Translations under genes and position numbers: made by a program | DNA from: Naumannella halotolerans | GTDB lineage: Bacteria; Actinomycetota; Actinomycetes; Propionibacteriales; Propionibacteriaceae | Direction: 5' to 3' | Assembly: GCF_004364645.1 (NCBI RefSeq) | Contig: NZ_SOAW01000003.1 | Coordinates: forward strand, 1 to 64,000 | Length of the DNA stretch: 64,000 bases | Notes under the pieces: model-generated | What the model was told of the DNA's origin: nothing | Database searches by the model: none | Seen by the model: the letters and a program-made list of their open reading frames with translations, nothing else | In this document: positions 52,137-56,442 of the stretch, piece by piece | How the letters are laid out: each line of letters opens with the position of its first letter | How positions within the stretch are numbered: position 1 is the first letter of the stretch

Positions 52137-53150
52137 ATGCTGGAGCTCGCCGACCGCCTGTCGCCGCTGATCTCTGGCGATCGACCGTTCGTCACAGCCA
52201 CCGTGATCGGTGTGGACGGCAGCGCCCCGCATGTGCTCGGATCCTCGATGGTCTTCGACGGGGAGTCGGTGATCGGCAGTATCGCTGCCGGCTGCGTCGA
52301 AGGGGCGGTGGTCGATGTCGCCGAACGGGTGTTGGACGACAGGCGAACCAGGATCGTCAGCTTCGGCGTGGCCGATGATGACCTGTACGCCGCGGGCCTG
52401 TCCTGCGGCGGCGAGTTGCGGATCCATCTCAGCCGGGTGGATCCGCACCACCCAGGTGCAGCCGGGGTGCTCGCTGCCCTCGCGCGGGTGCGAAGCGGAC
52501 AGAGTGCCCGCCTTCTCTACTCTGCCGATGGTTTCGGTGGCCGCGAGTGTGACGCCGAGTTCGTCGAGACGCGGACCCCGCCGGCACAGTTCCTGATCGT
52601 CGGGGCGATGGAATACTCGACGGCGCTGTCGGCTGCCGCACAGGCGCTGGACTATCGAGTCACAGTCTGCGATCCGCGGGCGCTGTTCACCACCCAGGAC
52701 CGGTTCCCGGGCACAGAGCTGGTGGTGGCCTGGCCGCCGCGTCACCTCGCCGCCGCCCAGCTCGACTCCCGATCGGTGATCTGCGTGCTCAGCCATGACG
52801 ATCGTTTCGACGCCGAGACGATCGCCCTGGCACTGCGGTCGCCGGCCGGGTACGTGGGGGCGATGGGGTCCAGGCGTACTCACGAACGACGCATGCGCGC
52901 ACTTCTCGACCTCGGGCTCAGCGACGAGGAGCTCACCCGGTTGCATTCGCCGATCGGGCTCGATCTGGGTGCCTCCACCCCCGCCGAGACCGCCATCTCG
53001 ATCCTTGCCGAGGTGTTGGCGCAGCGCAACGGTACGTCGGGTCGGCCGTTGCGGACGGGTGAGGGAGCCATCCATGGCAACTCCGGTGGAAGGTCCCGGT
53101 CGAAGTTGGCGTCGAAGTCGGCGTCGTTGTCACGACTCACGACGAGCTGA
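52137..53150 (+). CDS. xdhC: XdhC/CoxI-family molybdenum enzyme maturation factor
   Basis: A 337-residue protein. The N-terminal XdhC domain has VIGVDGSAPHVLGSSMVFDG and GSIAAGCVEGAV, with the cysteine thought to hold the cofactor sulfur. LSCGGELRIHL follows, and the C-terminal Rossmann domain begins FLIVGAMEYSTALS and includes LSHDDRFD and GYVGAMGSRRTHERR. XdhC binds molybdopterin cytosine dinucleotide, helps add the sulfido ligand and inserts the cofactor into xanthine-dehydrogenase-type enzymes. It is convergent with the hydroxylase genes, a layout that differs from the usual single operon. Confidence 0.9.
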   Translation: MLELADRLSPLISGDRPFVTATVIGVDGSAPHVLGSSMVFDGESVIGSIAAGCVEGAVVDVAERVLDDRRTRIVSFGVADDDLYAAGLSCGGELRIHLSRVDPHHPGAAGVLAALARVRSGQSARLLYSADGFGGRECDAEFVETRTPPAQFLIVGAMEYSTALSAAAQALDYRVTVCDPRALFTTQDRFPGTELVVAWPPRHLAAAQLDSRSVICVLSHDDRFDAETIALALRSPAGYVGAMGSRRTHERRMRALLDLGLSDEELTRLHSPIGLDLGASTPAETAISILAEVLAQRNGTSGRPLRTGEGAIHGNSGGRSRSKLASKSASLSRLTTS

Positions 53151-53208
53151 GATCCCTCGGCCCGCGTCTCGCCGTCGGGTTTCGATGCCCCGTCGCCTCG
53201 ATCCCTTC

Positions 53209-53269
53209 ATCTGTTCCGCAGGAAACGCATCTCAGAGCCTGTGACGGGTGCATTTCCTGTGGAACAGAT
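53209..53269. repeat. Stem-loop element, copy 1
   Basis: Arms of 21 bases (53209-53229 and 53249-53269; 19 Watson-Crick pairs) flank a 19-base loop containing CTCAGAGCCTGTGA. The outer stem reads ATCTGTTCC with GGAACAGAT. Confidence 0.75.
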
Positions 53270-53428
53270 TTGTCGGGTGGGGTGTGTGGTCGGATTCGCG
53301 TCGTCTGTCTGGGGTGTGGACTGTCTGGGCTGTCTGTCTGTCTCTCTGTGGCTGTGCTCGGGGCCGTGGGCCGTGCGTCCGCCGCTGGTACGACTGTCGC
53401 TTGCGTGCCCGTGCCACGTGAGCGCTCT

Positions 53429-53491
53429 AATCCGTTCCGCAGGAGTTGCAGCTCAGAGCCCGTGAGGAGTGCATTTGCTGCGGAACGGATT
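53429..53491. repeat. Stem-loop element, copy 2
   Basis: Arms of 22 bases (53429-53450 and 53470-53491; 19 pairs) flank a 19-base loop containing CTCAGAGCCCGTGA. The outer stem reads AATCCGTTCC with GGAACGGATT. Compared with copy 1, both sides of the stem have changed together. Confidence 0.75.
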
Positions 53492-53525
53492 GAGCGCGCG
53501 CCTGACCGCGGTCGGGCCCGCTGTT

Positions 53526-53781
53526 GGTTCGGGCCGGCTTGGTTCGGGCCGGCTTGGTTCGGGCCGGCTTGGTTCGGATCGGTCGCCTGGGTTGTCGACG
53601 GATCGATCGCCTGGGTTGTCGACGGGTCGGTGAGGACGGGGTTCGTCGGCGTTGGGCCGGTCCTGGGGTTGGGGTGAGCGTTGGGCAGGTCCTGGGGTTG
53701 GGTCCGTGGTGGGCAGGTGCGGGGTTGGGGTGAGCGTTGGACAGGCCCGGGGGTGGGGTCAGCGTCGGACAGGCCCGGGGG
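53526..53781 (+). repeat. Short tandem repeats downstream of the hydroxylase gene
   Basis: GGTTCGGGCCGGCTT occurs three times (53526-53570) plus a partial copy. Next, CGCCTGGGTTGTCGACGG appears twice. Then several G-rich repeats of the kind TGAGCGTTGGGCAGGTCC follow. On the strand of the hydroxylase gene these are C-rich and lie directly after its stop. Confidence 0.7.
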
Positions 53782-56442
53782 TCAGCGTTCGAAATGCACC
53801 GAGGGTACGGTCGCCATCGGGCCCATGTGCCAGGCGTCGGGTTGGGCGAGCCGCCAGACCCGGTCCCGGCTCATCGGCAGCTCGAACGGGCGTACCCCCA
53901 GGGCATCGCGGATCGCATTGGCCATCGCCGGCGCCACCGGGTTGTACGGTGCCTCGCTCATCGACTTCGCGCCCAGCGGACCCAGGGGCGAATGGGTGTC
54001 GGCGAAGTAGACCTCGGTCCGCGGCAGGTCACCGAACTTCGGGGTCCGGTAGTTCCGCAGCGTGCTGGTGGTCACCTCACCGTCGACCACCTGCACGATC
54101 TCGTACAACGACGAGCCGATCGCCTGCCCGACGCCGCCTTCGATCTGCCCCCGCAACTGCTCGGGGTTCAACACGGTGCCGGCATCGGCGGCATGCACCG
54201 AGCGCAGGATCCGTACCTCACCGGAACCGGGATTCACCGCGATGTCGAAACCGTGCACATTGAACGCGACCGTTCGCGGGGTGCCGTCATGGCTGGCGAC
54301 CGCCCGTCGCTCTCCGCCGGCGGCGAGTTGCTCGGCCAGGGCGCTCGCGGCGGCGAAGACCGCCCGGCCGGCGACCACGGTCCCGGTCGAACCGTAGGCG
54401 CCGGTGTCGTAGGTCCCCAGAGCGGTGTCGGACTGTTTGATCTTCACCCGATCGACCCCCACCCCCAGGGCCTGCGCGGCCAACTGGGTGTGCACGGTGG
54501 TGGTGCCGTTGCCGAACTCGGCGGTGCCGACCTCGACGACGAAGCTGCCGTCGTCCAACGCCTCCACCGCAGCGGTCGCGTGGTGCCCCCGCGGGGGGAT
54601 GGTGGCGATCATGGACAAGGCGACGCCCCGACCGCGTTTCCAACCCGCCGGGGCGCGCAGCCGACCACCGGGTTTCCGAAGCGCCTTCTCGACCAGCTCC
54701 AGGCACTGACCCAACCCGTCCTCACCGTCATAGCCGACGTCACCGGGATCGTCCTCGACGGTGACCAACGGGTCGCCGGGACGGACCGCATTGCGGCGGC
54801 GGAACTCGATCGGATCAAGATCGAGTTTGCGGGCCAGTTCGTCGATCGCCGACTCGATGGCGAAGATCACCTGGCCCAAGCCGTACCCGCGGAAGGCCCC
54901 GGACGGTGGGTTGTTGGTGTAGACCGACTCGGCGTCGATGCTCACATTCGCACAGCGATAGACCGCCACCGATTCGTGCACACTGTGGAACATCACCCCG
55001 GCGCCGTGGTTGCCGTAGGCGCCGGTGTCCATCAGCTCGTTCACCGCCAGCGCGGTCAGCTGTCCGTCGGCGGTGGCGGCGGCGGTCACCCCGACCCGCA
55101 TCGGATGCCGCAGCGGTGCCCGCAGGAACTCCTCGCTGCGGGTGAACTCGTACTGCACCGGTTGCCCGGTCCGCAGTACGGCCAAGGTCACCAGGTCCTC
55201 GGTCAGCATCTCCTGTTTGCCGCCGAAGCCACCACCCACCCGGGCGGTGAACACCCGTACCTTGTCCGGTTCGAGGTCGAACACCCGGGCGATCTCGTCC
55301 CGGATCAGGTACGGCACCTGGGAGGAGGTACGCAGGTTCAGCACGCCCTCGTCGTCGACCCAGCCCCTGGTGGCATGGGTCTCCAGGGCGACATGGGCGA
55401 CCCGGGCAGTGGCCCAGTTCCCGGTCACCACAGCATCGGCGGCCGCCACCGCCGCGGCGACATCACCGCGTTCGGCATGCAGTGCGGCCACCACATTGCG
55501 GTCCGGTTCGGCGATCCGGGCCTGATCCTTCTCCCCGTGCAACAACGGAGCACCGGGGGTACGCGCCGCCTGCGGATCGAAGACCGCCGGCAACTCCTCG
55601 TAGCTGACCTTGATCAACTCGACAGCCCGTTGAGCAAGATCAACAGTGTCGGCGACCACCGCAGCCACCCGCTGGCCGTGGAAGCGGACCACCGGATCCA
55701 GCACCATCGTGTCGTCGGGATCGTCGGTGCGTGACTCGTGCCGGCCGGTGGAGAAAAGGACCTGCGGCGCATCGCGGTGGGTGAGCACCGCCCGTACCCC
55801 TTCCAGGGCCTCGGCCGCGGTGGTGTCGATCGCGGTGATCCGGGCATGTGAAACGGTGGCGCCGAGGACCGCCAGATGCAGCAGCGGCCGTCCCGGTTCG
55901 GTGGTGTCCAAGGTGTACTGCTCGGTCCCGGTGACCACCCGCCAGGCGGCCGGCGGCATCACCGAACTGCCGACCACCGGATCGCCGGGATCGGCCTCGC
56001 AGCGGACATTGACCTGCCCGCCGATCGCGTCGGCGATCGAGCGGTAGCCGGTGCAGCGGCACAGATTGCCCTTCATCGACCGTGGCAGGTCCTGCAACTG
56101 TTCCTCATCCAGACAGGAAGCAGTGACCACCATCCCGGCGGTGCAGAATCCACACTGGAAGCCGCCGGCGCGGACGAATGCCTGCTGCATCGGATGGGGA
56201 TCGGTGGGGGTGCCGAGTCCGGCTGCGGTGGTGACCTCGGCACCGTCGGCGCGATGGACCGGGGTGATGCAGGAGTGGACCGGTGAGCCGTCCAACAGCA
56301 CCGTGCAGGCACCGCAGTCGCCGGCGTCACAGCCCTTCTTCACCGCGAACCGTTCCTGATCGCGCAGGAAGGTACGCAGCACCTGACCCGGCCGGGCCTC
56401 GGTGTCGACCGGTACGCCGTCGATGGTGACCCGCAACCTCAT
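53782..56442 (-). CDS. Molybdenum hydroxylase, fused [2Fe-2S] and Mo-binding subunit (XdhD-like)
   Basis: An 886-residue xanthine-dehydrogenase-family enzyme. Residues 1-150 carry two [2Fe-2S] clusters (KKGCDAGDCGACTVLLDG with a later Cys, and QCGFCTAGM ... GNLCRCTGY). The Mo domains follow: AARVGGGFGGKQEM, SGAFRGYGLGQ, and near the C-terminus the catalytic Glu in KSMSEAPYNPVAP. Most xanthine dehydrogenases keep FeS and FAD together in one chain; here FeS is fused to the Mo chain and FAD is on a separate protein, as in E. coli XdhD/YgfM. Xanthine or hypoxanthine is the likely substrate, given the guanine deaminase nearby. The ATG overlaps the FAD-subunit stop by four bases. Confidence 0.88.
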   Translation of the reverse strand: MRLRVTIDGVPVDTEARPGQVLRTFLRDQERFAVKKGCDAGDCGACTVLLDGSPVHSCITPVHRADGAEVTTAAGLGTPTDPHPMQQAFVRAGGFQCGFCTAGMVVTASCLDEEQLQDLPRSMKGNLCRCTGYRSIADAIGGQVNVRCEADPGDPVVGSSVMPPAAWRVVTGTEQYTLDTTEPGRPLLHLAVLGATVSHARITAIDTTAAEALEGVRAVLTHRDAPQVLFSTGRHESRTDDPDDTMVLDPVVRFHGQRVAAVVADTVDLAQRAVELIKVSYEELPAVFDPQAARTPGAPLLHGEKDQARIAEPDRNVVAALHAERGDVAAAVAAADAVVTGNWATARVAHVALETHATRGWVDDEGVLNLRTSSQVPYLIRDEIARVFDLEPDKVRVFTARVGGGFGGKQEMLTEDLVTLAVLRTGQPVQYEFTRSEEFLRAPLRHPMRVGVTAAATADGQLTALAVNELMDTGAYGNHGAGVMFHSVHESVAVYRCANVSIDAESVYTNNPPSGAFRGYGLGQVIFAIESAIDELARKLDLDPIEFRRRNAVRPGDPLVTVEDDPGDVGYDGEDGLGQCLELVEKALRKPGGRLRAPAGWKRGRGVALSMIATIPPRGHHATAAVEALDDGSFVVEVGTAEFGNGTTTVHTQLAAQALGVGVDRVKIKQSDTALGTYDTGAYGSTGTVVAGRAVFAAASALAEQLAAGGERRAVASHDGTPRTVAFNVHGFDIAVNPGSGEVRILRSVHAADAGTVLNPEQLRGQIEGGVGQAIGSSLYEIVQVVDGEVTTSTLRNYRTPKFGDLPRTEVYFADTHSPLGPLGAKSMSEAPYNPVAPAMANAIRDALGVRPFELPMSRDRVWRLAQPDAWHMGPMATVPSVHFER

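Follow-up and report, generated by a model that had tools for sequence, protein, structure and literature searches.

The two stem-loops found in one window of the Naumannella halotolerans genome, i.e. the whole stretch of 64,000 nucleotides that was analysed (contig NZ_SOAW01000003.1, positions 1 to 64,000), belong to a REP-like family of palindromic repeats that probably has an AbiEi-EDxHD-type nuclease as its dedicated enzyme, which would bind, cut and mobilise the repeat. Comparison across genomes shows that such repeats are linked to genes of this nuclease family, that the partnership of repeat and nuclease is clade-specific and that the repeats are dispersed in three genera.

Both hairpins of the window lie in a gap of ~630 bp between the end of a plus-strand gene at 53150 and the end of a minus-strand gene at 53782. 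Copy 1 has arms of 21 nt that are 90% complementary, with its left half-site at 53209..53229 on the plus strand and its right half-site at 53249..53269 on the minus strand; copy 2 has arms of 22 nt that are 86% complementary, at 53429..53450 (plus) and 53470..53491 (minus). The arms are 19 nt apart in both, and each copy folds on either strand with z-scores of -5.8 to -6.6 against its own shuffles, which bears out the two-copy stem-loop element with 19-base loops that a sequence-only reading of this DNA had proposed. Compared as direct repeats, copy 1 and copy 2 share 82% identity over 62 nt. A covariance model finds them as 63-nt matches at 53208..53270 (70.0 bits, E 1.3e-15) and 53429..53491 (69.2 bits, E 2.2e-15), and in copy 2 the span from TTCCGCAG to CTGCGGAA (53435-53485) measures 51 nt. 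Behind copy 2, the window also contains 15-bp tandem units (TTGGTTCGGGCCGGC) and degenerate units with a spacing of 28-29 bp (53524-53582 and 53636-53800).

These hairpins are real and not due to chance, because a 301-bp region of the window used as a BLAST query gave 39 matches in the genome (hereafter G000) and the covariance model, built from 24 copies, identified 54 distinct places of 63 nt each. The dispersed, REP-like character suspected from the two copies is thereby borne out at the scale of the genome. For later counts, 50 of the 54 places were retained, leaving out C1:1244038 (inside a gene) as well as C1:323708, C2:588791 and C1:1403506 (divergent). The 24 copies aligned without a single gap, and all 50 were afterwards put in gap-free register. 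Consistent with this rigidity, a pattern pairing TTCCGCAG with CTGCGGAA occurs at 40 genome places, all of which (40/40) span 51 nt despite spacers of 24-36 nt being permitted, while the same pair pattern read backwards occurs at none. Likewise, the half-site TTCCGCAGNA is found 125 times in the genome vs 41 times for its backward control, an excess of 84 that is about the number attributable to the pairs.

According to a simple purpose-made gene finder, the genes on either side of a copy are co-directional in 25 of the 50 cases, convergent in 18 and divergent in 6, and one copy lies inside a weak predicted gene (26, 20, 6 and 2, respectively, for all 54 places); the corresponding gene junctions in the window number 22, 11 and 11. 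Thus, 49 of the 50 copies are intergenic; 14 follow a predicted stop codon at a distance of at most 16 bp, and no copy lies within 20 bp of a predicted start. Copies are often neighbours 98-221 bp apart, several of them with common loops, as if locally duplicated (C1:170030/170128, C1:709448/709557, C2:124889/125009, C1:2300560/2300702 and the window pair). Two of the excluded places, C1:323708 and C2:588791, carry a distinct, mutually similar palindrome (TTCTGCAGCAATGGCC...) that was caught by the model and is perhaps a second family. Outside this genome, one scan of contigs with the half-site pair pattern led to a sole locus, a contig of an Acetobacteraceae MAG (JARLIM010000021.1, L124) with one exact match of the pair and no nuclease homologue within 8 kb.

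What is conserved in the family is the sequence of the arms. When the 100 arms of the 50 copies are treated as one symmetrised profile, information spans columns 2-27 (consensus RTCYGTTCCGCAGSANNYGCASYYMW) and then almost ends, the central columns 28-32 having 0.03-0.22 bits; outside the arms, C is enriched in the left flank and G in the right one. The loop core CTCAGAGCCYGTGA that the sequence-only reading had described is indeed common to the two window copies, yet this likeness is a feature of two neighbours and not of the 50-copy family. The same reading had argued for selection on structure from covarying outer stems, with T-A in one copy replaced by C-G in the other, and this part does not survive the alignment of more copies. 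Among the 24 copies, 219 of 500 shuffles paired at least as well, and among the 50 copies pairing did not rise above permutation in the outer, middle, inner or flanking segments. At the outer pair in question (columns 5/59), CG occurs 13, TG 12, CA 12 and TA 7 times, with 6 others, i.e. a paired fraction of 0.42 vs 0.44 expected from independent columns. The covariation argument falls because the variable stem columns vary independently on the two sides, as is also seen at column 15 (CC 14, GC 10, CG 9, GG 8) and column 19 (TG 15, CA 13, CG 10, TA 8). Of the two outcomes named beforehand as speaking against the element, a lack of further copies was thus not observed, while a lack of significant covariation was.

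Since the arms are conserved in sequence, their spacing is fixed and pairing does not exceed shuffles, the palindrome is maintained as a pair of inverted half-sites whose separation does not vary, which is what a dimeric protein would need in order to bind duplex DNA. The saturated centre between intact half-sites suggests selection on each copy, beyond the need of a purely selfish repeat. Columns 26 and 27 at the tip of the arms lean to pairing (0.54 vs 0.44 expected and 0.60 vs 0.45, respectively), and in the family of the congener G001 the inner stem covaries (p 0.001, 18 copies), which is evidence of pairing there and not fully reconcilable with the half-site reading. A possible extension of the stem into the C-rich and G-rich flanks was considered as well and rejected, given that no copy-specific pairing was found there (p 0.80 in the family itself, p 0.14 in the congener).

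A shared protein emerged from comparing palindrome-bearing loci of G000 with those of the congener. In G000, a gene outside the window (C1:633684-634616) has a palindrome at each end and encodes a protein of 332 aa (L079:1582-2580); its homologue in the congener, a protein of 318 aa (L117:1744-2700) with 52% identity over 313 residues, is encoded between two copies of another palindrome that has the same core length of 51 nt. The palindrome overlaps the 3′ end of both genes. Codon use of the flanked G000 gene is atypical, at 0.021 per codon vs 0.134-0.495 in 18 window genes, while two other nuclease genes of this genome, which are flanked by other repeats, fall inside the window range (0.200 and 0.171).

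The nature of this protein was approached via profile searches. The G000 protein itself reached no family in Pfam or NCBIfam and matched three AbiEi models of PADLOC (best E 1.5e-6). Among 25 aligned homologues, DUF559 and MTES_1575 (restriction-endonuclease-like) each match 14 and one PADLOC AbiEi model matches 19. Compared with PDB, the alignment profile finds 3hrl (E 3.5e-5), the mobile intron protein 3r3p (E 0.011), which we take to be I-Bth0305I, and PvuRts1I (E 0.13). Residues E230, H279 and D288 are invariant in the 25 sequences and D262 is present in at least 90%, a set that would fit an EDxHD active site. Judged by these matches, the family probably combines an AbiEi-like region with a nuclease domain of the Vsr/DUF559 type. 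The sequence-only reading had pointed to a REP-associated TnpA/Y1 transposase as the enzyme to look for; PF01797 has no genome match at E<=1, a search whose control gave matches in 10 of 14 known genomes, 6 of them over the cut-off. A gene flanked by copies of the family hence exists, but its product is predicted to be a Vsr/DUF559-type nuclease with an AbiEi-like region and not a Y1 enzyme.

Within the bacterial family, 42 of 198 genomes contain homologues of this protein (E<=1e-10). A class-wide search with the alignment as query, in which the five candidates of each genome were scored, detected them in 257 of 393 genomes, representing 97 of 123 genera (E<=1e-20). To compare their flanks, the 250 bp before each gene were aligned in both orientations with the 250 bp after it, to which 60 bp of the gene end were added, and a score of at least 19 was counted as a matched repeat pair. 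Such pairs occur at 23 of 34 homologue loci of the family (one of 35 loci, L134, was excluded for too short a flank). Among the controls, this score was reached by one tile out of 156 and no gene out of 21 in the window, by 8 of 289 tiles taken from other loci and by 15 of 1122 cross pairs, a number of which join near relatives. A class-wide set of loci, picked by protein score only, gave matched flanks at 24 of 28 (26 of 30 including two loci already used) against 5 of 173 same-locus control tiles, for which the Fisher p of 3e-22 is not exact, as tiles overlap and one family (f21), with palindromes that are mostly related, supplies 8 of the 28 loci. Left out of the 28 were L188, from the Naumannella halotolerans genome itself, and L189, the same locus as L147. 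The flank test found no matched flanks at 11 of the 34 family loci and 4 of the 28 class-wide loci.

All three named Arthrobacter plasmid loci that were read, out of six matching plasmid records, are flanked as well, with scores of 40, 28.6 and 34 (homologue accession WP_054009319.1), as is the one matching phage record, an unverified 'phage' contig from faeces (score 29.4). Viral contigs searched with two single-protein queries yielded no relative.

In 51 systems, preselected for matched flanks and including one frame-disrupted locus, a strong palindrome is present on both sides in 19 and on at least one side in 30. Another arrangement is found in genus g18, where the three loci read (L141, L139 and L145) carry arrays of ~20-bp hairpins with a period of 50-52 bp, in opposite orientation on the two sides of the nuclease gene. 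These arrays comprise up to six units on one side and have a CRISPR-like look, with spacers that are partly similar. Flanking repeats are clade-specific. Across 23 systems, similarity of protein and repeat are weakly correlated (rho 0.19, p 0.007), which backs joint change only mildly: the most similar pair of proteins has a modest repeat similarity (11.8), and the G000 repeat scores no more than 6.4-7.0 against the repeats of its five nearest homologues. At one locus (L234, G348:C3), the homologue is flanked by 61-bp palindromes and its frame is disrupted, and repeats may therefore outlive the gene.

Dispersal is likewise seen in other genera. In G147, the hairpin unit of the system occurs at 66 places with at most 3 mismatches (control 0). 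All 12 genomes of genus g69 that were searched, partly chosen since their nuclease loci carry this repeat, contain the arm GTTGATCATGGAG, in numbers from 1 to 107, with top counts of 107 (G330), 92 (G270) and 72 (G339) and a control of 0; the 13 other genomes searched contain it 0-2 times. In the g69 stretches that were read, these arms mostly form palindromes of 61 bp, in which 48 bp (in some cases 47) separate one arm from the other; they have the size of the window element and an unrelated sequence. G330, which has the most copies, showed no nuclease homologue in the stretches examined, and in G014 the repeats around the gene have just two additional matches, both weak. At two loci, L233 (G348:C3) and L231 (G330:C1), ~1.1 kb and 0.2 kb of other DNA, respectively, lie between the palindrome arms, and the insert of L233 has inverted ends, like an insertion sequence targeting the palindrome centre.

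The palindrome family of the congener agrees with that of G000 in core length but differs in its arm (RATTGTTTCCGYAGTTATGCCCGC), besides which arms of a further type, GATCCCTCCCGCAGGTGATGCCGC, occur; its 18 copies were accepted by eye from 29 places with at most 3 mismatches (backward-pattern control 9). Individual palindromes of the congener (loci L107-L123) are mosaics of the two arm types, being A/A, A/B or chimeric within an arm. Synteny was checked for seven intergenic places of G000 (eight copies) whose neighbour matches are at most 1.5 kb apart in the congener, with 0.8 of the 3.5 Mb of the congener covered and with gaps that are approximate, being taken from alignment ends, and may contain further genes. 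None of the seven places holds a palindrome by score, the best values being 5-11.5 vs a 99% level of 14.5 in random window pieces. The test was repeated with the arm pair itself because the congener's mosaic palindromes can score as low as 10: all seven places show 4-5 mismatches, compared with 3-6 in 40 random pieces and 0-2 in four known members.

How might such a system work? In the mechanism we propose, the element would be a palindromic recognition site of 61-63 bp with two inverted half-sites of ~25 bp and would make up one component of a two-part system, the second being the linked AbiEi-like/EDxHD-type nuclease gene. A nuclease dimer would bind the palindrome as duplex DNA, with one subunit per half-site. 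The autonomous unit would consist of the nuclease gene and its flanking palindromes, and solo palindromes, including both window copies, would be gene-less copies that settled between genes, often just behind stop codons. Copying might be driven by the nuclease, e.g. if a break near a target were repaired from a palindrome-bearing copy. Published precedents exist for both parts of the protein: AbiEi acts as an autorepressor by occupying inverted repeats in front of its operon, each of which reaches 23 bp and which together cover 49 bp (PMC3985639), and the EDxHD enzyme I-Bth0305I is described as a dimer on a target of nearly 60 bp (PMC3943268). A protein uniting AbiEi-like and EDxHD parts would therefore be expected to recognise a palindrome of 61 bp. 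AbiEi is reported in the former source to bind its two repeats independently and without cooperativity, which, carried over to the present protein, would not favour a dimer.

The same precedent lends itself to a reading without mobility, which we regard as possible, albeit rather unlikely: the palindromes could be host-serving binding sites of the AbiEi-like protein, such as operators, chromosome-organising sites or roadblocks, with the flanking pair providing autoregulation and the dispersed sites making up a regulon or a structural network, the copies of which would each be retained by selection and not through mobility. Conserved half-sites around a free centre would suit such sites, as would the autorepression of AbiEi via inverted repeats (PMC3985639) and the placement of copies between genes (49/50), frequently within 16 bp behind a stop codon (14/50) and never within 20 bp of a start. 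Yet a host network sits poorly with the 0 of 7 syntenic sites occupied in the congener, with palindromes on both sides of the gene, where they also overlap its 3′ end, and with arm counts ranging from 1 to 107 inside one genus (g69).

That the copies act as bidirectional transcription terminators or 3′-end stabilisers, with the nuclease link being secondary, is improbable. The 18 copies between convergent genes, the 14 directly behind a stop codon and the strong RNA hairpins would all be in keeping with such a role. However, a terminator scan of 53000-53900 that admitted loops of 3-8 nt made no call, neither window copy is followed by a T run, C prevails in the left flanks and G in the right ones, six copies lie between divergent genes, pairing covariation is absent in the G000 family and the repeats are arranged in pairs around one gene family.

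Still less probable is a MITE of an ordinary DDE transposase, whose terminal inverted repeats would be the arms. While a short, dispersed and intergenic palindrome would match this description, its centre has no common sequence, the Pfam matches of the linked proteins include no DDE domain, and the flanks give no clear sign of a duplicated target site: flank identity reaches at most 0.35 vs 0.26 expected, the best flank offsets slightly exceed the 95% level of 60 permutations at k = 3, 5, 6 and 8 and not at 2, 4 and 9, and the raised offsets share no consistent boundary. Finally, it is hardly credible that the repeats are a structured RNA or REPs moved by a Y1 (RAYT) transposase, which is what the sequence-only reading had in view, since hairpin folding, the REP-like distribution and the inner-stem covariation of the congener family are set against copies that do not covary in G000, a genome in which PF01797 finds no Y1 gene, and an Rfam scan of 52700-54000 that yielded nothing above threshold, its two microRNA matches being far under their gathering scores.

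A REP-like repeat with its own nuclease, the reading we prefer, is close to the REP/RAYT 'REPtrons' (PMC3733652; titles on the same subject include PMC2817692 and PMC8266576), which likewise comprise many short palindromic intergenic repeats, flank an enzyme gene and differ in sequence between clades. In contrast to these, the enzyme here is unrelated, with no Y1 match, and where the repeats of REP/RAYT systems are tagged hairpins of 20-40 bp in these descriptions, the present element has 61 bp, is two-fold symmetric and shows a conservation fitting duplex recognition. The system would operate in the manner of a REPtron without belonging to that class, given that the defining Y1 enzyme was not found. 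In PMC3733652, REPs are described as either GTAG-tagged with a RAYT or CGTC-tagged without a dedicated enzyme; the latter share with the present family the dispersal of palindromes without RAYT, but they have no linked enzyme and are described there in five phyla. The word Actinobacteria is absent from the main text of that paper, and in the passages searched, a transcriptome paper on Propionibacterium acnes mentions REPs just in general (PMC3848588).

On the side of the enzyme, the homing endonuclease I-Bth0305I offers a nuclease family related by profile (3r3p, E 0.011) and a dimer-bound target of nearly 60 bp (PMC3943268), whereas the gene here is free-standing between its sites, with neither intron nor intein noticed, and carries an AbiEi-like region. 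The AbiEi antitoxins of type IV toxin-antitoxin systems have a related protein region and bind long inverted repeats at their own promoter (PMC3985639); unlike these, the repeats here are found on both sides of the gene as well as dispersed, and the protein has a predicted C-terminal nuclease domain. The DUF559 and MTES_1575 proteins (PF04480, PF18741) are alike in the C-terminal domain, which each of the two models recognises in 14 of 25 members. To our knowledge, no association of these proteins with repeats has been reported, and DUF559 papers judged by title or start of abstract included none on repeats. No paper connecting palindromes, whether flanking or dispersed, with nucleases of the AbiEi or DUF559 type was among the matches listed, which were judged by title and abstract start and come from a literature largely outside subscription journals and preprints.

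Beyond Naumannella, we lean towards the view that selfish repeat systems of this kind are widespread and undescribed: an AbiEi-EDxHD nuclease gene would be bounded by clade-specific palindromes, or by hairpin arrays with a 51-bp period, that are recognised as duplex DNA and spread through the genome, with a turnover of specificity so fast that sister species differ in palindromes and sites. If true, this would constitute a further enzymatic route to REP-like repeats besides HUH and DDE chemistry and would provide a dedicated enzyme for palindromic repeats where a RAYT is absent. It would also assign a function to an abundant 'unknown' gene family, which is present in 257 of 393 genomes of the class and whose flanks were examined at 28 + 34 loci. 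Such systems would further represent a natural set of nuclease/site pairs with sites near 60 bp, the specificity of which could perhaps be read from the flanking DNA.
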